Origin: Mesorhizobium sp. M1E.F.Ca.ET.045.02.1.1 | GTDB taxonomy: Bacteria > Pseudomonadota > Alphaproteobacteria > Rhizobiales > Rhizobiaceae | Assembly: GCF_003952485.1 (NCBI RefSeq) | Contig: NZ_CP034447.1 | Coordinates: forward strand, 2,742,501 to 2,806,500 | Length of the DNA: 64,000 nucleotides | Direction: 5' to 3' | In this document: positions 2,951 to 58,715 of the stretch, piece by piece | How the letters are laid out: each line of letters opens with the position of its first letter | How positions within the stretch are numbered: the first letter of the stretch is position 1 | The notes under the pieces: generated by a model | What the model was told of the DNA's origin: nothing | The model's input: the letters and a program-made list of their open reading frames with translations, nothing else | Database searches by the model: none | Position numbers and translations under genes: made by a program

Positions 2951-3027
<77 letters not shown>

Positions 3028-3045
3028 ATTTTATCATAAATCAAT

Positions 3046-3075
3046 AACCGCCTCGGTCTGACCGGGGCGGTTTTT
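3046..3075 (+). terminator. Terminator supplied by the island behind tRNA-fMet
   Basis: A 12-bp stem (AACCGCCTCGGT with ACCGGGGCGGTT, one G-U pair), a 3-base loop and five T residues. It lies just inside attL, so it belongs to the island and replaces the tRNA terminator displaced to 57922. In the excised circle it would follow the recombinase frame; the in-frame TGA at 3059-3061 lies in its loop. Confidence 0.85.
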
Positions 3076-6012: not shown

Positions 6013-9000
6013 GTGAGCTGGTGGTATCCCAAGACGTCGCGAGCGGATGAGCTGACCCGGCGCCTGCAGCGCCTGGAGGAAGCCTTCTCGGATGGTCTGG
6101 ACGCTGCGTTCGATCGGCTTGCCCATCTCTCCGAGCGATTGGCGCAAGCGCTCGGACGTTCGGATTTTCCGAGCAGTCAGATCGGCCGTTGGATTTGGGT
6201 CGCCTCGCAATATCGTCTCCACGCGGAAACCGAGCCGAGAGTGGCCGCGCTTGCCGCTAGTGCGCTCGTTTTCCTCGAAGAGGCACTCGATCGCCGCTCG
6301 CTGGATGACGACCATCGTCGGGAGCTCAATTGGATACTGGAGACTGTCGTCGGACGCCTCGCCGCTCAGGTCGGCCCTGCGCATCTAAAGGGTTGCTTGA
6401 GCAGCGAGGAGTTGCGACACATCGACGAGCGCATCTCGTCCTACGACGACTCCGAAATTTTCGACTTCGACTCAGTCGTGCTTGCCGTTCGACGCCAACT
6501 CGCAATCCTCGAGAAGTTCGGCGGATTGGGCGATTGGGCCAGCCTATCGACCAAGACGGACGCGCTGCTAACCGCCGCAAGGCGCCCCGGGACCGAAAAT
6601 GCTCCCGCGCGCGCTGCTTTGCGCTATCTCGCCGAGCGTCACGACGTGGTCACCGACGACGCAGGTGTTCTCGGCCTTATCGACGACATCTATGTTCTTG
6701 AATGGGCTTATGCCGCCGTCGAGCATCAAACGATGTGTTTGCCGATTCTCGAGGCCATGTCGGGACGATGGCCGTTCGTGGCGACGCTGGGCCTTGGCGC
6801 CCGCGGCGCGCAGCTCGATCGGTTCGGACGCTACGTTGTCTGCGCCGCGCTCAAGACTCTGGCGACTCCCGGCGGAGGTGCGCTGGTGCTGCGCGAGACC
6901 GGACCGTATCCAGTCATCGCGGCGGTAGCCGCTGCGGTCGAGGCTGTGAGGGCTCAGGCTCATGCCTTCGAAGAGGAAATGGAGCTTTGGCGGCCCGGGT
7001 GCCCGGTGACGATCGGCGATGGCACGGTCACCTTCCACGCTCGCTGGGGCGGTCCGATCAAAGGCACGGCGCGGCCGCGCTACCGGCTCCATGTCGCGGA
7101 CGCTGGTAGTATCTCGGTCGGCGAGGAGGTGCTACCCTACCTCGCTCGCGCGCCGCGCGAGTGGAAGCGACTCACGAACGGCACACACATTCTCACTTGG
7201 CTCAAGGACCGCAATGTCGACGGACTGATCGGTCTGACGGGGGAAGGGCGCAGACGACCCTCGCGCTATGAGGCGGTCCTTCTGCTGACGCCGCGAACTA
7301 AGCTGGACAGCTACCTTCCCGCGCTCAGGCTCCAGGGCGTCACGCCAGCGGCGCTGCTCGGAGCCTACTGGATCGACAATCAGGGCCATTCGCACGCTCT
7401 ACCCGGCAGCGCCACCGACCGTCCGCTTCTCTATGCATGCGGTGACATCGGAGCCGCCACCGACCTCTTGTTCGATCCACCCGAGTGCATCGATGGCTGG
7501 CGGGTTCTGGTCGACGGCGCCGCTCTTGGACGGACGCTTCATGCCGCTCTCGCCGCGTCCGGCCGTCTCAAGAACAGTCGGCTTTGTGTGCTCGCCCACC
7601 TTCATGAGCGTGAACGCGTGAGCGCGCTCGTCGATCAAGGGCTTGAGGACCTTTGGTATCTCGAGGACCAGGATGTCGAGGTGCCGCCGGTGACTCATCC
7701 CGGCAAGTCGACGGAAAGCGACCCGCTCGCCCGCTTCTTCGCTCGCCGCTCAGCGCACTGGCCTGCAGCGTATTCGATTCGCGTGAGCGAAAATTCGTTT
7801 CTGGACGCCGTAGCCGATTGCTTGGGTCGCGGCAACGCTCGCCAGAGCGGCGATTTGGCCTTGGACGCGCTCGACTTGACCGTTGCTGCCTTCCTGCGTC
7901 GCGCGACGGCGCAGCCGCTTCCGGATGAGAACGACCGTCGCGCGCTCGAAGCCTTGGCTGCTGCAATAGTCAGCCAAGCTTCGATGCTTGCCGTATACGA
8001 GCCCCATGCGGCCGAGGTTCGCGCGCTGTTCTCGGGCTTTGCCTCTGACGCATCGGGCGGCGACCGACGCAATGCGTTGCTCGATCTGGCCGCCTCGTTC
8101 GGTGCCGATGAAGCTGTCGCCGTAGTTTGCCGATCGAGCGTGACGGCCGATCGCTGCCGGGCGGCGGCCGAAGCGACCGATGCCCTTCGTCGATTCGAAT
8201 GGATGACCATCGAAGCGCTCCGCGCCTCCGCGCCATACGACCGTGTGGTCGTTCCCGGCTGGCTCGGCCGCCAAGTCATGCGTGAGCTCTCCAACGTCGG
8301 CTTCGGTGCTCGGACCGACATGCTGCTCCTACCATACGAGCGGAGATGGTACGATAGGACGATTTCCGCTGGCCGCCGCTGGGAACAGCGGCTCGAGCGC
8401 TCCACTGCTCAGCTCCTAAAGCGGATCGTAGACGATGGACTGGGGGCCGCCGAGCACCGCTGGCACGAGCAAGCCTCTCTTCGCGTCGAGCTCCAGGCGG
8501 CCAACGACGTCGAGCCGATCGACGATACGCCCGACACCGCTCAAGCTGAGACGCGGGCGATCGAAGGCATCCGCAGGGTGCTTCCGTCCGCGGCCTGCCG
8601 CAACGAGACGGCTAAGGCTCAGCTGGTCCTGTTCACGGATCCCGGCGCGTTTGCGCTTCTGCCGCCGGCGGGCCATGTTATCGTCCTGCCTGAAGGCCAT
8701 GACACACCCACCGCGGATGGCGACGAAACTCGGCTACTCACGTCTGTCGCGGCGCTCGTGCCTGGCATGTTGACTGCGCTCCCACTCGAGACTGACCGTG
8801 ATCTGGTCGATGCGTGGGCCGACCGCATGCTAGCCGACGGCGGCGCGCTCCGGGCTCGGGCCGATCTCTGGAAGGTTGCGCTCAAGCGGCATTTTGCGGC
8901 GACCCGTGAAAGCTATGCACGCTTCGCTGGCCGAATGGGCAAAGCCGGTGAGCGCCGTGATGCGCTGACGATCCGATCATGGGCGAACGACACTCGCAGC

Positions 9001-9333
9001 ATCGCGCCGCGTAGCTACCGTCGTGTCTTGCCGTTGATCGCCGATCTGACGAACGACACAGAGTTGCGCGCGGGCCTTGGCGACGCGGTGACTGCGATCG
9101 ACGGAGTCTACCGTGCCCGTGCCGAAGCGTCCGACGCGATTGTACGTGAGATCTTCTCCGGCACGTTTGATCTGTCGCAACCAACCATTGCATTCGAGGT
9201 CGAAGGCAGGCGTGTCGTCTACGCGCTGGCGCGTGTCGAGCGGTTAGGAGGCATCCAGGAGGTTCCCAGCGAGCTGGTCGGCCGACGATTGCATCTTGCC
9301 GATCTAGCGACGCATGACGGAGCAGTGGCATGA
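6013..9333 (+). CDS. DrmE-like DISARM protein with N-terminal DUF1232 (YkvA) region
   Basis: A 1106-residue protein, first of four genes linked by ATGA overlaps. In the N-terminal quarter, DDAGVLGLIDDIYVLEWA (about residues 216-233) matches the DUF1232/YkvA signature (IP-x-G-x-x-DD). The C-terminal half has a helicase-like but motif-poor region, with YDRVVVPGWLGRQVMREL and LLLPYERRWYD followed by paired Arg/Trp residues. This resembles the DrmE proteins of class 2 DISARM. No Walker A motif is present, so it is probably non-catalytic. The start is GTG 6013; the ATG at 5988 is out of frame. It may act as a scaffold or sensor for DrmA/DrmB. The DrmE assignment rests on architecture and context and is less certain than DrmA and DrmB. 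Confidence 0.65.
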   Translation: MSWWYPKTSRADELTRRLQRLEEAFSDGLDAAFDRLAHLSERLAQALGRSDFPSSQIGRWIWVASQYRLHAETEPRVAALAASALVFLEEALDRRSLDDDHRRELNWILETVVGRLAAQVGPAHLKGCLSSEELRHIDERISSYDDSEIFDFDSVVLAVRRQLAILEKFGGLGDWASLSTKTDALLTAARRPGTENAPARAALRYLAERHDVVTDDAGVLGLIDDIYVLEWAYAAVEHQTMCLPILEAMSGRWPFVATLGLGARGAQLDRFGRYVVCAALKTLATPGGGALVLRETGPYPVIAAVAAAVEAVRAQAHAFEEEMELWRPGCPVTIGDGTVTFHARWGGPIKGTARPRYRLHVADAGSISVGEEVLPYLARAPREWKRLTNGTHILTWLKDRNVDGLIGLTGEGRRRPSRYEAVLLLTPRTKLDSYLPALRLQGVTPAALLGAYWIDNQGHSHALPGSATDRPLLYACGDIGAATDLLFDPPECIDGWRVLVDGAALGRTLHAALAASGRLKNSRLCVLAHLHERERVSALVDQGLEDLWYLEDQDVEVPPVTHPGKSTESDPLARFFARRSAHWPAAYSIRVSENSFLDAVADCLGRGNARQSGDLALDALDLTVAAFLRRATAQPLPDENDRRALEALAAAIVSQASMLAVYEPHAAEVRALFSGFASDASGGDRRNALLDLAASFGADEAVAVVCRSSVTADRCRAAAEATDALRRFEWMTIEALRASAPYDRVVVPGWLGRQVMRELSNVGFGARTDMLLLPYERRWYDRTISAGRRWEQRLERSTAQLLKRIVDDGLGAAEHRWHEQASLRVELQAANDVEPIDDTPDTAQAETRAIEGIRRVLPSAACRNETAKAQLVLFTDPGAFALLPPAGHVIVLPEGHDTPTADGDETRLLTSVAALVPGMLTALPLETDRDLVDAWADRMLADGGALRARADLWKVALKRHFAATRESYARFAGRMGKAGERRDALTIRSWANDTRSIAPRSYRRVLPLIADLTNDTELRAGLGDAVTAIDGVYRARAEASDAIVREIFSGTFDLSQPTIAFEVEGRRVVYALARVERLGGIQEVPSELVGRRLHLADLATHDGAVA

Positions 9334-11063
9334 CGCGAATGCTCCCGCCAGTTTGCCCTTCCGAGATCTCGCGGGGCGAGGCGCGCATGTTTGGGCTGAT
9401 CCGGGATTGCCCGGGGAGCGACGACCTCGTGTGCCTCCACTCACTTGGGATCGCCCGGCATCTACGCAAGGACTATGCCGAAGCCGATTTCGTGCTGATT
9501 GGTCCTGAAGGTATCTTCTGCCTGGAAGTGAAAGGCGGCGACGTTGAGCGCAAGGATGGCATGTGGCGGGTTGGGCACGGCGCAAAATCCTACACCTCGA
9601 GCGAAGGTCCGTTCAAACAGGCTCAGTCGGCCCGCTGGGGCCTGATCGGCTATCTGGATAGGCGTCTCGGGCGCTCCGTACGCAAGGACAGCCTCGTCGG
9701 GTGGGGCGTGGTCTTACCCGATATCTGCTTCGATCGGTCAGACCCCGAATGGGACCAGGACGTCATCTACGACGTCCGCGACACGACGCAGCCATTCACT
9801 AATTACGTCTCTCGCCTGGCGCGCTATTTTCGTGCGCGTGCGGACGAGATGGGCCGCGTAGCGCCAGCCCGGCTAAGCGCCGCGCGGCGCGAAAGCTATC
9901 TACAGGTGCTGCGCGGCGACTTCGAGGTCGTGCAAAGCTTGTCGGGCCTGCTCGCCGAGAGCGAGCGCGAGCTTGTGGCCTTGAGCGCGGACCAACACCG
10001 CGTACTCGATTATGCCCTAAACGAGAGCAATCCGCGCCTCTTGTGCGACGGCCCCGCAGGCAGCGGCAAGACGTTGATCGCGCTCGAGGCCGCGCGCCGT
10101 TTGGCCGCAGCGGGACGTTCGGTGCTCTTGCTTTGTTACAACGATAATCTTGCTCATTTCCTCAAGATCGACATGGCTCGGACGGCACCGGGCGTGCGTA
10201 TGGCGACGCTTCACGGCTTCTTCGGAGAGACGATCCGCGCCGCCGGGCTCGGCGATCGGCTGCGCGGCGGCGACATCGGCGCGTCGGTTGAGACGTTCGA
10301 CAAGCTCTATCCCCAGCTCTTCGAGAATGCCTGCTCGATCTTGCTCGACGACGGCGCGCTTCCTCAATTCGATGTGATTGTTGTCGACGAAGCGCAGGAC
10401 ATCCTCACATTTCCTTTCCTCGATTGCCTAAATCTCGTTCTCACGAACGGTTTCCGCGGTGGCCGCTGGCTGATCTTTCACGATTCCGGGCCGCAATCGA
10501 GGCTGTACGGTCGCGTCGATCCCGTTCTTCTCGACACGCTGCGCGGGTTCGGCGCCTTTGCGGTCGAGCTCCGCGAGAACTTCCGCAATCCCAAGGAGGT
10601 CGCCATCGAAGCTAGCCGCATCGCCGGAATTGTCGAGCCCGTCTGCAGGCGTACGTTGCGCTCGCCTGTCGATTATCGCCTCGTCGCCGATCCCAAGGAT
10701 CAAGCGAAGCGCCTACGTGCATTGCTCGTCGACTTGCTCAAGGAAGGCGTTTCGCCGGGAAGTGTCTCGATTCTCTCCTGGGTCAAGACAACTGCATCGA
10801 GCCTTGCGCTGCATCCGCCTGATGTCGGCAAGCCGTTCCGACGCATCGAGCAGCACCGCACGGCGGATCCAGAGGCCTTCACTTACGGCACGATCGCCGG
10901 TTTCAAGGGATTGGAGAATGATATCGTGATCCTAACCGATCTTCCCGACCGTCTCGACGATGAGCTAGTGCGCTCCGCTCTCTACGTCGGCATTACCCGT
11001 GCGCGTACCAAGCTCTACGCTCTCGTCGGAGAGGACTGGCTCCAAGCGAGGGCCGTGCAATGA
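9330..11063 (+). CDS. NERD nuclease-domain / UvrD-like SF1 helicase fusion
   Basis: A 577-residue protein. Residues about 40-150 are a nuclease-related (NERD) domain with ADFVLIGPEGIFCLEVKGGD, the D...E-x-K core of the PD-(D/E)XK fold. From about residue 220 a superfamily 1 helicase follows: Walker A GPAGSGKT near 240, Walker B VDEAQD near 351, then GFKGLEND near 525 and YVGITRAR near 552, the last two matching UvrD motifs V and VI. It overlaps both neighbours by 4 bases and so is translationally coupled inside the DISARM-like operon. Canonical DISARM instead carries a PLD nuclease (DrmC), so this protein may supply nuclease activity here. That substitution is inference. Confidence 0.85.
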   Translation: MTRMLPPVCPSEISRGEARMFGLIRDCPGSDDLVCLHSLGIARHLRKDYAEADFVLIGPEGIFCLEVKGGDVERKDGMWRVGHGAKSYTSSEGPFKQAQSARWGLIGYLDRRLGRSVRKDSLVGWGVVLPDICFDRSDPEWDQDVIYDVRDTTQPFTNYVSRLARYFRARADEMGRVAPARLSAARRESYLQVLRGDFEVVQSLSGLLAESERELVALSADQHRVLDYALNESNPRLLCDGPAGSGKTLIALEAARRLAAAGRSVLLLCYNDNLAHFLKIDMARTAPGVRMATLHGFFGETIRAAGLGDRLRGGDIGASVETFDKLYPQLFENACSILLDDGALPQFDVIVVDEAQDILTFPFLDCLNLVLTNGFRGGRWLIFHDSGPQSRLYGRVDPVLLDTLRGFGAFAVELRENFRNPKEVAIEASRIAGIVEPVCRRTLRSPVDYRLVADPKDQAKRLRALLVDLLKEGVSPGSVSILSWVKTTASSLALHPPDVGKPFRRIEQHRTADPEAFTYGTIAGFKGLENDIVILTDLPDRLDDELVRSALYVGITRARTKLYALVGEDWLQARAVQ

Positions 11064-50916: not shown

Positions 50917-53900
50917 TCAGTTTGAAGAAGATCGATGACGAAGCGCGTTTTGGGTTTCCGCCATCCATCCGTCTGCTTGAATTTCTTTGAAAAGCTCAAG
51001 TGCGCCGTGTAGCAATTTCTTCGCGTTACCTCTGTTCGTGGCAAGTTCAAATCTGCCAAAGGCAAGCAGGCTTTGGGCGAGTTCAGGACGAGACTGGATT
51101 GTTTGGAGAAGATCGACACTTCTGCGGAACTGCGCGTCCGCCGATTGGCGGTCGCCACTGGCCTCGTAGGCTTGGCCGAGCGCGCGACGGGCAGCGCCAA
51201 TCTCAAGCCTTGCCGTTACGCGCTCCGCGAGCTCCAATGCGCGTTCCGCTGCTTGCAGCCCGGCTGCAGCGTCCCCTTCTGCCAAGTGCAATTGGCTCAA
51301 AGCGATGTGCGGATAGATCTTGCAGAAATCGTCATCCAGCCGCCGTGCCACTGTCTTCATCACCGGATCCAGGAAAGCCCTTGCGTCGGAAATCCGGTTC
51401 AGCTTCAGGCAGGCGATGGCTGCCCAGCCTGACGACCACAACACAACGCTCCATCTCCCGTTTTCCCACGCGGTCGAAAGGTTCTGCTCGACGACCTGCA
51501 CCGTGCGCTGCCACAATCCTTTGTAAAACCAAGATTCTGCTTCCATCACCACCCACGAGCGCACCTCGACGTCTTGGGTTGACGCTGCTATCTCTCGAAC
51601 CATCTGCGCAAATTGGAGGGAGCGCTTCAACCTCCCGGCGCGGGCGTTGTAGCAGCGGCCGGGACCTGCGGCGAAGGACCCAAGTTCTTCCAGATCCCCG
51701 ACTTCCTTCAACAGATTCGCAGCCCGTTCGATCTTCTCGAGTGATTCCTCAAGCCGTCCGGTATTGCCGAGCAAGATGGCGTAGCGCATCGCGACTTCGG
51801 CCTGGCACGCCGTATCCGTGAAACTGGCATGTAGTTCTGCGCTGACCAACAAGGACTCTTCCAACCAATCCATGCCTTTGAAGGACTGCAGCCCCGCCAA
51901 GGCCGCGATGTCTCCCTCAGCACACGCGATTGCCCTGTCGACTTGGTGAAGCGCTTCGCCACGCTCCTCTTTGGTCGCGTATGGCCTGCCACACCTGACC
52001 CGCGCCAGGACCGTCTCTACGTATGTTTTTTGGTGTGCCGCCGTGTCCGGAAGGTGTTCGAGGGCGTGGATGGCGCGCCGGTAATGCTCGGCCGCCTCCC
52101 AGCGAGCCCCTCGACTCTGGGCTTTCGCCGCAGCCAAGAGCCGGCAATTCAGGACCTCTTCCCAGGCATTTGCTCTCTCGTAGTGGTGCGCAAGCAATGC
52201 CGGATCGTCGGTCCGCGCCTGCGTAAGCGCACCGGCAATACGCTTGTGCAGTTCTTTCCGCGTGTCACGTAGCAAGCTGCCATAGGCCGCATCCTGAAGC
52301 AGAGCGTGCCTGAAGACATAGGTCGCTCCCGAAGCGGCTTGCCGGAAGACCAGCAGCCCAGCGTCGACCAAGGCATCCAAAGCAGTTTGTAGGGCAGCTC
52401 CATCGGGATCGCATACGCGCTCGAGAAGCTCGATCGTGAACTCCCGGCCTATTGCTGCCGCGGTCTGATAGACCCGCTTTCCACTGGCGAGCCGATCGAG
52501 CCGCGCCATCAGCATGTCTTGAAGTGATGCGGGCACGCCCCGCTCGAGAGCCCCGGCGGAGCTCGGTTGACTCTGTGCCTCAATCAGGGTCCTGGCCATC
52601 TCTTCGAGAAAGAGAGGTATCCCATCGCTCCGCTTCACAATCTCTTCAACGATGCTTTCTGGCAGCAAGTCAGAGTCCGCCAGCGAACCGATCATTTTCT
52701 CGCACTCGCGCTTGGCTATGCGATTCAACACAAGCGTCGTGACATGAGGCTGATCGGACCATGCGACGCTGATCCCGGGACGCGAGGTGACGATTAGCAA
52801 GACCGGCAGAGCCTCTACCCCGTCGACGAGCCGGTTGAGAAACTCGCGTGTCGACAGGTCACACCAGTGCAGATCCTCGAAGATGATAATCAATGGACCT
52901 TTGGCGCAGATATCTTCTATAAGGCCCGCAAGCACATCAAAAGTGCGTTCCTTCTGTTGAACCGCATCTAGGCTTGGCCAGCCGCCTTCTCCTCGGTTCA
53001 TTGGAAGCGAGAGAAAAGCTGCGAGAACCAACAAAGCGTCGTCTCCCTCGGCAGATTTGGGGAGTATCGCCGCCAACCTTCGCAACTTTTCGCCCGGATT
53101 GAGCTCCGGGTGAATGTCGGCTGCTTGCTCTAGCTGCATGACCAGAGGGTAAAACGCTCGGTCCGCATGTGAGGGCGAGCATTGATAGGTCAGGCGCGCA
53201 TGAGGCCGATCCAGTAGCTTTGCTCGCACAGCTTCACAGAGGCGTGACTTGCCGATACCTGGCTCGCCCGAAACGAGAACGACTTGGCCTTCGCCCGCCT
53301 CTGCTTGCCGGAATCGCTTTGTCAGCAGTTCCACTTCATCGTCGCGCCCGATCAGCGGCGTGTGGAGCCGGCCGTGCAGAGCTTCAAAGCGTGTCTCTCT
53401 GGCCGCCTTACCCAAGATACGCGAAGCGCGCACGGGCTCCGGAAATCCCTTCAAGAGATGTTCGCCAAGATCGGCAGTCTCATAGAGATTGCCGAGAAGC
53501 TGCCGCGTGCTGGCCGAGACCACGACAGTTCCGGACTCCGCGATGCCCTGCAGCCGCGCAGCCAGATTCGGAGTTTCGCCGACCACAGCGCGCTCTCGCG
53601 CCGTTCCAGTGCCGGTCGTTTCACCGACCATTACAAGACCTGTCGCGATACCGACGCGAGCCGCGATAGCTCGTCCGATCGCGGTGTCCAACGTTGAGAC
53701 TGCGAATGTCAGTTCAAGGCCCGCCTCGACGGCGCGCTCAGCATCGTCCTCGTGGGCGCGCGGCCAGCCGAAATAGGCCAGCACCCCATCGCCCATGAAC
53801 TTGGCGATATGCCCATCCCATCCCGCCACGATCTTTGTGCAACTTAAGTGATAAGCACGTATTGCGTTGGCCACATCCTCGGGATCGAACTCGACCGAGA

Positions 53901-54210
53901 GGCGCGTCGAGTCCACCAGGTCACAGAACATCACCGTAAGCTGCCGACGTTCGGGCGACAAATCTTGCGAGGGCTCAGCCGACGTGACCGGTTCCGTGGC
54001 TCCTTCGTTGCTCCGTCCGGTGTCAGGTACTGAAAGGCCGGCTATCGCCCTCAGAAGTCTGCGCCGATCACCTACCGCGGCAACCCCCATTTCTTTAAGA
54101 TCATCGCCCGTCAGGCTATGCAGCACATCGCCATCGATCTTGTTTTTGGCAAACGCTTCCACGTACTCGCCAAGACCTTGTTTCTCCAGCCATTTGGCGA
54201 CGTCGCGCAT
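50917..54210 (-). CDS. SAM domain / adenylate-guanylate cyclase / AAA-ATPase / TPR protein
   Basis: A 1097-residue multidomain signalling protein. The order is: SAM domain (about 1-60, VAKWLEKQGLGEYVEAFAKN); class III nucleotide cyclase (about 88-260) with metal-binding MFCDLVDSTRLS and KFMGDGVLAYFGWP; P-loop ATPase with SGEPGIGKSRL near residue 320 and IIIFEDLHWCD; then a helical TPR-like region to the end. Many copies of this architecture exist in Mesorhizobium and Bradyrhizobium (family knowledge). It probably makes cAMP in response to a signal sensed by the ATPase-TPR part, but the signal is unknown. It stands alone on the minus strand, separating the catabolic region from the integration module. 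Confidence 0.9.
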   Translation of the reverse strand: MRDVAKWLEKQGLGEYVEAFAKNKIDGDVLHSLTGDDLKEMGVAAVGDRRRLLRAIAGLSVPDTGRSNEGATEPVTSAEPSQDLSPERRQLTVMFCDLVDSTRLSVEFDPEDVANAIRAYHLSCTKIVAGWDGHIAKFMGDGVLAYFGWPRAHEDDAERAVEAGLELTFAVSTLDTAIGRAIAARVGIATGLVMVGETTGTGTARERAVVGETPNLAARLQGIAESGTVVVSASTRQLLGNLYETADLGEHLLKGFPEPVRASRILGKAARETRFEALHGRLHTPLIGRDDEVELLTKRFRQAEAGEGQVVLVSGEPGIGKSRLCEAVRAKLLDRPHARLTYQCSPSHADRAFYPLVMQLEQAADIHPELNPGEKLRRLAAILPKSAEGDDALLVLAAFLSLPMNRGEGGWPSLDAVQQKERTFDVLAGLIEDICAKGPLIIIFEDLHWCDLSTREFLNRLVDGVEALPVLLIVTSRPGISVAWSDQPHVTTLVLNRIAKRECEKMIGSLADSDLLPESIVEEIVKRSDGIPLFLEEMARTLIEAQSQPSSAGALERGVPASLQDMLMARLDRLASGKRVYQTAAAIGREFTIELLERVCDPDGAALQTALDALVDAGLLVFRQAASGATYVFRHALLQDAAYGSLLRDTRKELHKRIAGALTQARTDDPALLAHHYERANAWEEVLNCRLLAAAKAQSRGARWEAAEHYRRAIHALEHLPDTAAHQKTYVETVLARVRCGRPYATKEERGEALHQVDRAIACAEGDIAALAGLQSFKGMDWLEESLLVSAELHASFTDTACQAEVAMRYAILLGNTGRLEESLEKIERAANLLKEVGDLEELGSFAAGPGRCYNARAGRLKRSLQFAQMVREIAASTQDVEVRSWVVMEAESWFYKGLWQRTVQVVEQNLSTAWENGRWSVVLWSSGWAAIACLKLNRISDARAFLDPVMKTVARRLDDDFCKIYPHIALSQLHLAEGDAAAGLQAAERALELAERVTARLEIGAARRALGQAYEASGDRQSADAQFRRSVDLLQTIQSRPELAQSLLAFGRFELATNRGNAKKLLHGALELFKEIQADGWMAETQNALRHRSSSN

Positions 54211-55686: not shown

Positions 55687-56001
55687 TCAGGGATTTCTCC
55701 ATGACGACGATCGCGTGGGTGTGCTCTGGCTGCCCATTGCGGAGACGACAAAGGGAATCCCCTGGTTATGTTCGAGTGTCTGCAAGTGCTCTCACCGAAA
55801 CAGTTGGAACGCACAATAGTGCCGGCCAACCGGTGTCCCTTTGATTGAGCGCTATCGCCTGTCTTAGCGACTAGCTGGGAGACGAAACCGCACGGCGCAA
55901 GTTATTGCACGCTGCGGCCCTACGACGTGAACTTCGTACTTTCCTTCGCCATCTGGAGGCCTCTGATGGCAGGTCGATCCACCATTGGGAGAGCGACCGC
56001 G
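55687..56001. other. Intergenic stretch ahead of the recombinase module
   Basis: I see no supported gene. GTG 55927 and ATG 55966 are in frame with the small gene that follows and could extend it. The promoter for the recombinase pair should lie here. Confidence 0.4.
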
Positions 56002-56277
56002 ATGGCAGAGGAAACCATGACTGGGCCGCAGGCGTTGGTTCCGGCGAATGACAACGGCGACCTCGTCAGCCCGGAAGATCGCCCCGAACTCACGGCGGCG
56101 GCGAAGGTGGATCGGGTGGTGTTGGACATCGCCCGGCTGATCGGCCGGCAACTGGCACGGGAGGCGTTCGAGGTGGTTCTGGCGGCCAACGACAATCGTC
56201 CAGGCCGCCAAGAGGGAGAGGGCAGGGGGCCGGATGGGAAACCCCTTGGGAACAAGAGAGAGGATCCGCCGCCATGA
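56002..56277 (+). CDS. Small hypothetical protein coupled to the recombinase
   Basis: A 91-residue protein. It has an acidic helical centre (AAAKVDRVVLDIARLIGRQL then AREAFEVVLAANDNR) and a Pro/Gly-rich tail ending PPP. The repeated ANDN motif is typical of small proteins in this position in rhizobial genomes. ATG 56002 follows GGGAGAG; alternatives lie at 55966 and 55927. Its stop overlaps the recombinase start (ATGA), so the two are co-translated. A role as recombinase accessory or directionality factor is possible but only inferred from position. Confidence 0.7.
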   Translation: MAEETMTGPQALVPANDNGDLVSPEDRPELTAAAKVDRVVLDIARLIGRQLAREAFEVVLAANDNRPGRQEGEGRGPDGKPLGNKREDPPP

Positions 56278-58715
56278 CCCGTGTCGCACTCTATGCCCGC
56301 TATTCCTCCGACAGCCAGAGGGATGCCTCCATCGAGGACCAGTTGAGGCTGTGCCGTGAGCAGGCGGCGCGCGAGGGCTGGAGCGTGGCGGGAACCTTTG
56401 AGGATGCGGCGATCTCCGGCGCCAGCACCGTGCTACGGCCGGGCATCCAGCATTTGGTCCGCGATGCCCAACGCGGCTGCTTCGAGGTGGTGCTGGCCGA
56501 GGCGCTCGATCGCATCAGCCGCGACCAGGCGGATGTCGCAACCCTTTTCAAACATCTCAAATTCGCCGGCGTTGCCATCGTCACTTTGGCCGAGGGCGAG
56601 ATCAGCGAATTGCATGTCGGTCTCAAGGGCACGATGAATGCGCTCTTCCTCAAGGACCTTGCCCTCAAGACCCATCGCGGCCTGCGCGGGAGGGTGGAGA
56701 AGGGCAAGGCCGGAGGCGGACTGTGCTACGGCTACCGGGTGGTGAAGAAACTCGATTCCGAAGGTGAGCCTGTTCGCGGCGACCGAGAAATCGTGCCGGA
56801 GGAAGCGACCATCGTGCGCCGCATCTTCCGCGAATTTGCCGCCGGGAAGAGCCCGAAGGCGATCGCAGTCGATCTCAACAAGGAGGGCGTTCCTGGCCCG
56901 CTCGGCCGGCATTGGGGCGACACCAGCGTGCGCGGGCATCTCATCCGGGGCACCGGCGTCATCAACAATGAACTCTATACCGGTGTGCTGGTCTGGAACC
57001 GCCTGCATTTCGTCAAGGATCCTGCTACCGGCAAACGCGTCTCCCGGGCCAATCCGCCAATCAAATGGATTCGCACCGAGGTGCCGCATCTCAGGGTCGT
57101 CGAGGACGAACTGTGGCAGGCCGTGAAGGAGAGACAGAAATCCATCGCCAACCAGTTCGAGGCGGTGGCGATCGCCACGCGCAAGGCCCGGGCCAGGAAG
57201 CTGCACACCATGAAGCGGCCGGTCTCCCTCCTTTCCGGCCTGCTCATCTGTGGCTGCTGCGGCGGGCGCTACGGCCTGTTCACGCGCGACCGCTATGCCT
57301 GTCTCAACCACCAGCGCCGGGGCATCTGCGCCAACGGCCGCACCATCACCCGCGAAAAGATCGAACAGCGAGTCCTCGCCGGTCTAAAGGAAAGGCTGGT
57401 GTCGGCCGATGCGGTGGCCGAGGCGATCAGAGCCTTTGCCCAGGAGACCAACCGCCTGAACCAGGAGCGTCGCGCGCAAGGGGAACAGGACCGCAAAGCG
57501 CTCGACAAGGTCGAGCGCGCTATCGCCGGCATCATGGCCGCGATCGAGGATGGCCTTTACCAACCTTCGATGAAAGCAAGGATGGAAGACCTGGAGCGGC
57601 AGAAGGCTGAGATCACGGCGCGTCTGGCAGTGGCGCCCACAGACGTGCCCGACCTGCATCCCAATATTGCCGCTCTCTACCGCAAGCGGGCCGAGCAGTT
57701 CACGCAAGCGCTCGCCGACCAAGAGGACGGACGCCGGGCCGCAGAAGCGTTGCGCTCGTTGATCGGAGAGATCGTGCTCACGCCGGGCAACAAGCGCGGC
57801 GAAGTTCATGCCGAGCTACGCGGCGAGCTGTTCGGCATCCTCGAACTCGCCAAACCCGACCGAAATGAACAGTCCGACGATGTTATGACAAAAGGGGTTG
57901 CGGGTCCCCGCAACCAAATACAAAAACGGCCCGCCTCGCGCGGGCCGTTTTTGTTTTTCGCCCTGCGGTTTCTTTCCAACTCGACACGGCAGAGCTTTGC
58001 AGCGATGGTCGCTCGGCGCCCCGCGCCACCGTTCGGCCGTGGCGCTAACGTAGGAGGAGCAGAACATGCGGCAGGCGTTGATCATCTGGGGCGGCTGGGA
58101 AGGGCACGAACCCGAAGCCGGAGCGCGTGCCGTCAAGGCGATGCTCGAGGAGGAAGGTTTTGCCGTACGCGTGGAGAACACGACCGCGGCATTCGCCGAT
58201 CCGGCCATTGCCGAGCTCAGCCTGATCGTGCCGATCTACACCATGTCCAAGCTCGCCAAGGCCGAAGAGGCCAACCTGACCAAGGCTGTCGAAAGCGGCG
58301 TCGGGCTGGGCGGTTATCATGGCGGCATGGGCGACGCGTTCCGCGAATCGACCGACTACCAGTTCATGTGCGGCGGGCAGTGGGTCGCGCATCCCGGCAA
58401 CATCATCGACTATCGGGTGAACATCGTGCGACGCGACGACCCGATCATGGATGGCATCGACGATTTCGCCTACCGCTCCGAGCAGTATTACATGCATGTC
58501 GACCCCTCGAACGAGGTGCTGGCGACCACCACCTTTTCGGGCGAACACGCGCCGTGGATCGACGGCGTCGTCATGCCGGTTGTGTGGAAGCGCCGGCACG
58601 GCAAGGGACGTGTATTCTATTCGTCGCTCGGCCACGTGGCGAAGGAGTTCGAAGTGCCGCAGATGCGGACGATCCTGCGCCGCGGGCTGGTGTGGGCTGC
58701 GCGCTGAGTCCGTGA
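56274..58715 (+). CDS. Large serine recombinase; frame runs through attR into flanking DNA
   Basis: The island's integrase. The resolvase domain starts VALYARYSSDSQRDASIEDQ with catalytic serine at 11 or 12 (the first aligns best); the recombinase domain is about 170-280; a zinc ribbon (CGCCGGRYG...C...C) is near 323-352; a coiled coil is about 385-465. About 548 residues precede the attR crossover. From 57918 the frame is chromosomal DNA: it reads through the hairpin at 57922-57952 and on to 58715, where it overlaps the ThuA-like gene in another frame. The true C terminus in the excised circle would be ten codons beyond the core, ending at TGA 3059-3061. The tail after residue 548 is an artefact of integration. 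Confidence 0.85.
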   Translation: MTRVALYARYSSDSQRDASIEDQLRLCREQAAREGWSVAGTFEDAAISGASTVLRPGIQHLVRDAQRGCFEVVLAEALDRISRDQADVATLFKHLKFAGVAIVTLAEGEISELHVGLKGTMNALFLKDLALKTHRGLRGRVEKGKAGGGLCYGYRVVKKLDSEGEPVRGDREIVPEEATIVRRIFREFAAGKSPKAIAVDLNKEGVPGPLGRHWGDTSVRGHLIRGTGVINNELYTGVLVWNRLHFVKDPATGKRVSRANPPIKWIRTEVPHLRVVEDELWQAVKERQKSIANQFEAVAIATRKARARKLHTMKRPVSLLSGLLICGCCGGRYGLFTRDRYACLNHQRRGICANGRTITREKIEQRVLAGLKERLVSADAVAEAIRAFAQETNRLNQERRAQGEQDRKALDKVERAIAGIMAAIEDGLYQPSMKARMEDLERQKAEITARLAVAPTDVPDLHPNIAALYRKRAEQFTQALADQEDGRRAAEALRSLIGEIVLTPGNKRGEVHAELRGELFGILELAKPDRNEQSDDVMTKGVAGPRNQIQKRPASRGPFLFFALRFLSNSTRQSFAAMVARRPAPPFGRGANVGGAEHAAGVDHLGRLGRARTRSRSACRQGDARGGRFCRTRGEHDRGIRRSGHCRAQPDRADLHHVQARQGRRGQPDQGCRKRRRAGRLSWRHGRRVPRIDRLPVHVRRAVGRASRQHHRLSGEHRATRRPDHGWHRRFRLPLRAVLHACRPLERGAGDHHLFGRTRAVDRRRRHAGCVEAPARQGTCILFVARPRGEGVRSAADADDPAPRAGVGCALSP
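57897..57917 (+). other. attR: right end of genomic island, inside the recombinase gene
   Basis: The core GTCCCCGCAACCAA at 57904-57917 is identical to attL in the tRNA 3' end. On the island side the copy is part of an inverted repeat, GGTTGCGG (57895-57902) facing CCGCAACC (57908-57915), the kind of symmetry expected for a serine recombinase binding site. The host side (ATAC...) would follow tRNA-fMet in the empty site. Confidence 0.85.
57922..57952 (+). terminator. Rho-independent terminator, probably the original tRNA-fMet terminator
   Basis: AAAAACGGCCCG (57922-57933) and CGGGCCGTTTTT (57941-57952) form a perfect 12-bp stem with a 7-base loop and a T-rich tail. It lies 4 bases beyond attR, where the tRNA terminator would be after reversing the insertion. 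In the present state it should end transcripts of the recombinase gene before any in-frame stop codon. Confidence 0.9.
58066..58707 (+). CDS. ThuA-like (trehalose utilisation) family protein
   Basis: A 213-residue protein of the ThuA / type-1 glutamine-amidotransferase-like fold: ALIIWGGWEGHEPEAGARAV at the start, GLGGYHGGMGDAFRESTDYQ in the middle, and GKGRVFYSSLGHVAKEFEVP near the end, all typical. ThuA of Sinorhizobium helps convert disaccharides to 3-keto derivatives (family knowledge). ATG 58066 follows TAGGAGGAG. It is the first host gene outside the island. The recombinase read-through frame overlaps it on the same strand in another frame; the ThuA-like frame is the genuine gene. Confidence 0.92.
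   Translation: MRQALIIWGGWEGHEPEAGARAVKAMLEEEGFAVRVENTTAAFADPAIAELSLIVPIYTMSKLAKAEEANLTKAVESGVGLGGYHGGMGDAFRESTDYQFMCGGQWVAHPGNIIDYRVNIVRRDDPIMDGIDDFAYRSEQYYMHVDPSNEVLATTTFSGEHAPWIDGVVMPVVWKRRHGKGRVFYSSLGHVAKEFEVPQMRTILRRGLVWAAR

Follow-up and report, generated by a model that had tools for sequence, protein, structure and literature searches.

How a serine recombinase avoids undoing its own integration is a central question for these enzymes, and the usual answer is a separate directionality factor. An island of the soil bacterium Mesorhizobium sp. M1E.F.Ca.ET.045.02.1.1, contained in a stretch of 64,000 nucleotides (the window; contig NZ_CP034447.1, positions 2,742,501 to 2,806,500), raises the question in another form, namely whether integration itself changes the enzyme. 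The island is inserted at the 3' end of a tRNA-fMet gene and encodes a large serine recombinase whose attachment (att) site lies in the last codons of its own gene. Joining the island ends in silico shows two predicted forms of this gene, tied to the state of the DNA: in the circle it would finish with ten conserved codons and a stop of its own, and in the integrated island host DNA follows the core instead. The sequences compared support this anatomy, and selection on the ten-residue tail, with high confidence, and the arrangement is probably an integration-dependent C-terminal switch.

The recombinase gene and its attachment sites

The elements of the locus are:

56274..57917, + strand: large serine recombinase, integrated part, the 548 codons up to and including the att core (frame scan; Pfam Resolvase, Recombinase and Zn_ribbon_recom)
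57904..57917, + strand: attR core GTCCCCGCAACCAA, in frame, codons P-R-N-Q
57918..58715, + strand: host-encoded read-through extension of the recombinase frame, first stop TGA 58713-58715
57920..57954, + strand: host terminator, a 15-bp perfect stem and then a T-rich tract, in the recombinase frame after integration
2951..3027, + strand: tRNA-fMet (CAT), its 3' end rebuilt by the island at attL
3015..3028, + strand: attL core, the second copy of GTCCCCGCAACCAA, at the end of tRNA-fMet
3029..3061, + strand: the ten tail codons (FYHKSITASV) and stop (TGA 3059-3061) of the recombinase gene, contiguous with the rest of it in the circle alone
3046..3072, + strand: terminator-like hairpin of the island's left end, with a T-run after 3072
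55927..56277, + strand: small open reading frame (ORF) of 116 amino acids, overlapping the recombinase start by ATGA, a conserved partner

The protein is a large serine recombinase; PF00239, PF07508 and PF13408 are above their cut-offs in a Pfam scan, and its sequence matches chain 3bvp, the solved TP901-1 integrase. Large serine recombinases have a long coiled coil in the zinc-ribbon part and a short, roughly symmetric attP beside the gene. The ORF begins with the ATG at 56274, crosses the attR core, read as GGT CCC CGC AAC CAA, and continues into host DNA without a stop until 58713-58715. An ORF scan thus agrees with the original prediction, made from the letters of the window, that the core lies within a recombinase frame open to 58715. 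The 14-base core has exactly two copies in the window (3015-3028 and 57904-57917), the number of matches with up to two mismatches expected by chance in 64 kb being 0.47, and the attP arms, as is usual for such enzymes, are roughly symmetric (19 of 28 positions about 57905/57906).

At the in-silico junction, built from the window sequence only, CAA is followed by TTTTATCATAAATC in frame to the TGA at 3059-3061, and the protein ends with ...VMTKGVAGPRNQFYHKSITASV*. The complete gene of the predicted circle would encode 558 amino acids, with the ten-residue tail, its own stop and its own terminator-like hairpin; once the island is integrated, the tail codons and stop lie about 55 kb from the gene, at attL. 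The junction bears out the earlier claims that integration removes the stop and that the circle would restore it and encode a complete protein, and it goes beyond them in that a conserved coding tail would be restored as well. The two hairpins had been placed slightly differently. A perfect hairpin does follow attR, and the 12 bp said to lie 4 bases past it are part of a 15-bp stem (57920-57934/57940-57954, about -27 kcal/mol) that begins 2 bases past the core. The TGA, put in the loop of the island's own terminator, straddles it: T and G are in the 3-nt loop of the stem 3046-3057/3061-3072 and A is in the closing pair. In the circle the recombinase message would terminate at this left-end hairpin, which in the integrated island follows the tRNA.

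Empty and occupied sites were compared in eight genomes. Within the same genome, the flank of the empty tRNA-fMet is identical to the attR flank at 40 of 40 bases in three (G093, G001, G158), at 39 in G150 and G156, at 38 in G151 and at 33 in G117; in G159, where the tRNA copies differ, only 19 match. The attR flank of the window is identical at 35-36 of 40 bases to five empty tRNA sites from four other Mesorhizobium genomes (L184, L186, L187, L189, L190); L183 matches at 33 of 40 and has no usual tRNA end before it, and L188 matches less well. The empty tRNA sites show the expected attB, and in other genomes, too, an unoccupied tRNA-fMet is followed by the host terminator element. The occupied and empty sites found within one genome are consistent with a recombinase that would act on attP x attB. 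A chance repeat as the source of the core pair is ruled out by the empty sites together with the conservation of the core.

The circle-only tail among relatives

Relatives of the recombinase were compared at 111 loci, a number in which the window and some genomes figure twice. A CCCCGCA core is found near the gene end in 47 of the 111, the 64 loci without it being left out of the frame count, and it stands in frame 0 in 46 of the 47; the exception, L016, has a mutated core. The in-frame cores range from Mesorhizobium to Acetobacter and Thalassospira, at 64-100% identity. Past the core the frame enters unlike flanks, which are host DNA or, in some loci, a neighbouring island, and the residues beyond it number anything from 0 to several hundred. 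Among the best 120 of 7576 database homologues, PRN is found in 102, at residue 545 in 86, with unrelated ends thereafter, and the tail is found in none of the 120. These unlike ends are explained if gene callers miss the true protein end in integrated genomes.

The tail is found instead at the other end of the islands. A stop exactly at the 11th codon after CAN is present in 28 of 58 distinct tRNA-fMet flanks; the remaining 30 all lack it. Three flanks of insufficient length (L136, L146 and L155) are outside this count. Matching by hand the recombinases that have an upstream tRNA-fMet on the same contig gave 18 pairs, of which L066/L152 is one; the nearest same-strand upstream tRNA-fMet, 14 to 137 kb away, carries the tail in 18 of 18. 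A further set of left ends was selected with the core and codons 1-3 (plus AA) as the sole criteria in 385 genomes of the class and 297 of the order, both sets including the window's own genome. The codon-11 stop is present in 15 of 15 new sites, six of them in G693, and one more site (L200) is a repeat of L153. In the window's own genome the window site has the stop and a broken relic, L193 (the same as L001), lacks it. Altogether, the conserved tail occurs in left ends of islands from several Alphaproteobacterial orders, and the arrangement is an old one under constraint.

Some left ends stand apart from any paired gene. L001 (around 1501; C1:691525, - strand, in the window's own genome) is an orphan left end in which the core and the first tail codons are followed by a cut, and its position at a place other than a tRNA looks like the relic of an insertion at a secondary site. 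L191, L192, L196 and L202-L208 are left ends with intact tail codons, several following a GGTTGC-type sequence like that of the other attP arm; neither a recombinase match nor a tRNA was found in these loci. L204 lies inside the Labrys island, which thus has two left ends, both with the tail. In the same genus (G148, C2:85388-88639, locus L039) a tail-class recombinase and a sister recombinase of 49% identity on the opposite strand converge and overlap at an att core (87011-87028).

The tail varies as a peptide would. The first 26 distinct tail DNAs encode 19 peptides, all with F at residue 1 and S at residue 5; the invariant serine is written by five codons, one of them AGT, two base changes away from TCN. 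Seven codons write the I or L of residue 6, and five write the I or V of the last residue. The stop is TAA or TGA in the 26 DNAs and TAG in L104. The later sites, among them L198 with M as residue 6 and L208 with a final L, bring the totals to 40 distinct tail DNAs and 31 peptides. In the distal six codons the synonymous share of single-base differences is 0.55 in frame 0 and 0.40 and 0.17 in the other frames, shares that are descriptive since the sequence pairs are not independent.

The opposite explanation, that the left end is conserved as DNA only, being the right arm of attP with the reading frame a by-product, finds its footing in tail codons 1-4. These are part of the symmetric arm, and their synonymous share is 0.33 in the coding frame and 0.49 and 0.19 in the others. 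DNA binding may thus add constraint on these codons. The distal six codons, which vary mostly synonymously in frame 0, the serine written by both TCN and AGT, the exchanges of I with L and of I with V, and the three different stop codons at one position speak against it, so that as an account of the whole left end it is very improbable. Conservation as DNA only is rejected by the synonymous shares for the distal six codons and kept as possible for the first four.

The relatives without the core have other ends. Of the 64 coreless loci, 27 (49-63% identity; L018-L023, L032, L033 and others among L069-L112) run in antisense across tRNA-fMet-like sequence and close with GFEPx-FRL or a similar end, their TGA lying in that stretch. 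In L073 and L077 the antisense stretch and its stop are present and no tRNA was found, from which we infer that integration leaves the gene end of this group unaltered. A sphingomonad group ends SGSRG* or similar. Mapped on a tree of 46 relatives, the tail class is accounted for by 2 changes, compared with a mean of 14.9 after shuffling and with 0 of 500 shuffles as low; the sphingomonad group is one clade beside or within the tail class, and the antisense group is mixed with others.

Proposed consequences of losing the tail

The favoured course of events, an integration-dependent switch of the C-terminus, would run as follows. In the circle the recombinase gene would be complete, and the tailed isoform would act for integration after transfer. 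Integration at the 3' end of tRNA-fMet gives the gene a host-encoded 3' sequence and separates it from its tail and stop. The integrated element would then make only a tail-less recombinase, with the flank deciding where it ends; its message in this host would probably lack a stop, finish at the host hairpin and be cleared by transfer-messenger RNA (tmRNA). Integration itself would thus change the enzyme, most likely by lowering or redirecting it. That the loss of the tail has a regulatory effect at all is an evenly balanced proposition.

The original prediction held that the integrated form should be a substrate for tmRNA tagging. In the window there is no in-frame stop before the end of the host hairpin. 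Integrated ends elsewhere were collected with the stricter core CCCCGCAACCA and near-identical flanks were merged, which gave 40 distinct attR (L016 and L063 fell out). A hand count from the table on 39 of them (L104 left out) finds no in-frame stop within 45 nt of the core at 29 and a stop at 10, directly after the core at four (L005, L044, L056, L065); 12 of 13 Mesorhizobium attR have no such stop. By a strict terminator rule, 15 of the 40 have no terminator, 17 are non-stop and 8 (L104 included) have a stop before the terminator ends. A non-stop recombinase message is plausible in this host, given the Mesorhizobium attR and an alpha tmRNA gene in the genome, and to that extent the claim stands; its generality does not, since non-stop decay would depend on the host. 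As a general, selected function it is ruled out by the 10 of 39 sites at which the flank supplies a stop.

An outright shut-down upon integration, in which the host terminator ends the message, ribosomes stall and tmRNA tags the recombinase, would suit the strong hairpin right after the core, the tmRNA gene and the majority of attR, above all in Mesorhizobium, that lack a nearby stop. It is somewhat unlikely as the explanation of the locus, for the flank and not the element sets the non-stop state, and both the sites with a stop and those without a terminator fall outside it.

A natural joining of core, tail and stop in one frame is found in L104 (Agrobacterium sp. a22-2, 7914-9383), whose tail is HFRHKSITAPI. 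No tRNA was found in this locus, and it is a relic, the only distinct integrated end that keeps the tail; the flank replaces it in 39 of 40. When the 40 C-terminal residues of L104 were compared with a database, 4 candidates were scored and 3 matched; of these 3, only L104's own protein has the tail. In the search for circles, one attP left-end pattern had no exact counterpart among viral contigs; plasmid records contain relatives. An AlphaFold model of L104 (mean predicted local distance difference test, pLDDT, 70; predicted template modelling score, pTM, 0.54) has long helices at 279-326 and 332-354, in a block with pLDDT 73-94, in agreement with the coiled coil of the family, and its ordered part ends with a helix at 419-429; residues 430-460, which hold the core residues and the tail, have pLDDT of about 26-32. 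The model says little on the role of the tail, which is present in one row only. The folded domains should survive integration, which favours a regulatory change over destruction of the enzyme.

Several points weigh against the switch. The first four tail codons do not stand out as coding, and the stops close to the core deny non-stop decay any general part. The full tail in a predicted circle is joined to the gene only at the in-silico junction and in L104, whose recombinase lacks about its first 100 residues, so that the one natural junction comes from an N-terminally lost gene. All confidently modelled domains end before the core, and the segment past the zinc-ribbon part is modelled as disordered, tail included; loss of the tail should therefore not unfold the enzyme. 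Integration may lower recombinase activity, but since integrated elements must still excise, the tail-less form should not be wholly inactive unless another copy helps.

A rival reading is a passive overlap: attP happens to coincide with the gene's 3' end, the tail has some general task in the circle, its loss has no regulatory meaning and the integrated form excises well enough. In its favour, the ends past the core vary freely, the confidently modelled domains are all complete before the core, and 27 of 64 coreless sisters use a tRNA-like stop, so that such elements can do without a changed end. Against it, one would hardly predict that a passive end retains its circle-only amino acids for so long and is yet dispensable when integrated. 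A passive overlap is possible, on balance the lesser prospect.

The switch could also act on direction. The tailed form may favour attP x attB and the tail-less form favour or permit attL x attR, the gene encoding its own change of direction; the tail is confined to the state in which the element needs to integrate, its conservation is that of a protein, and both forms keep all modelled domains. The related proposal, that the tail makes the enzyme integrate and that, once the reaction itself has removed it, the enzyme has a different preference or is short-lived, a self-cancelling direction switch, is unlikely, and the strict change of direction is a shade more unlikely still. The 116-amino-acid ORF that overlaps the recombinase start has matches in 93 of 113 loci, sister groups included (tblastn, E 0.01), with no Pfam match; it is a candidate directionality factor, and that it may be an ordinary one speaks against a direction switch in the tail.

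Related systems and island cargo

Among the closest known systems are the archaeal suicidal tyrosine integrases (SSV1, pTN3, pT26-2), in which the integrase gene contains the recombination site and integration takes part of the gene away from the rest (PMC8371274). The recombinase of the window likewise has its att site inside the gene and is parted by integration, but the archaeal enzymes are tyrosine integrases cut into inactive parts, whereas here there are only serine domains and the gene loses a ten-residue tail and its stop. The same source calls self-disrupting recombinases exclusive to archaea, a statement with which a bacterial tail-switching recombinase would fit poorly (PMC8371274).

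In the integration-dependent immunity of mycobacteriophage BPs, attP lies in the repressor gene and the free form has an ssrA-like degradation tag (PMC4557955). There too attP is in a coding gene and the free and integrated forms differ C-terminally; here, unlike in BPs, the gene is the recombinase and not the repressor, and the free form would carry a conserved tail and not a degradation tag. IME_Spy2096_SNF2 of Streptococcus, to judge by a passing mention, has its recombination site within a serine integrase gene, as here, although its target is snf2 and not a tRNA, and the mention is silent on what the two forms encode (PMC5357655). In Mesorhizobium itself, the genus of the window island, five integrative and mobilizable elements (IMEs) and one integrative and conjugative element (ICE) have serine recombinases, and tRNA-Met is among the ICE and IME sites; the gene end and an internal attP are absent from the passages compared (PMC8627217). 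ICEKp1 also ties the recombinase to the integration state, by a promoter switch of its integrase that changes the 5' side, while here it would be the coding 3' end that changes (PMC13023037).

Literature searches among open-licence PubMed Central papers brought up no account of a serine recombinase with a conserved tail confined to the circle. If the predicted circle gene is expressed as drawn, nature offers two C-terminally different isoforms of one enzyme tied to the state of the DNA, with 40 tail sequences (31 peptides) at hand.

As to cargo, a Pfam scan of 23 window ORFs, part of those present, found no relaxase or conjugation gene. Between 4824 and 21630 the window has defence-like genes: DrmA- and DrmB-like (DISARM) proteins, a NERD helicase, a NOV_C protein (PDC-S36) and a cytosine methylase matching the MTase_II and DrmMII models, with a CARF-kinase-AAA protein on the other strand from the DISARM-like genes. 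At 50917-54210 a SAM domain, an adenylate/guanylate cyclase, AAA and a weak TPR are combined, and PycC (Pycsar cyclase) matches over the cyclase part. The segment 27822-48301 carries what by Pfam is catabolic cargo, comprising parts of a glycine-betaine-type ABC transporter, an MTTB methyltransferase, FAD oxidoreductases with GCV_T domains, a Rieske/MOSC reductase and an aldehyde dehydrogenase.

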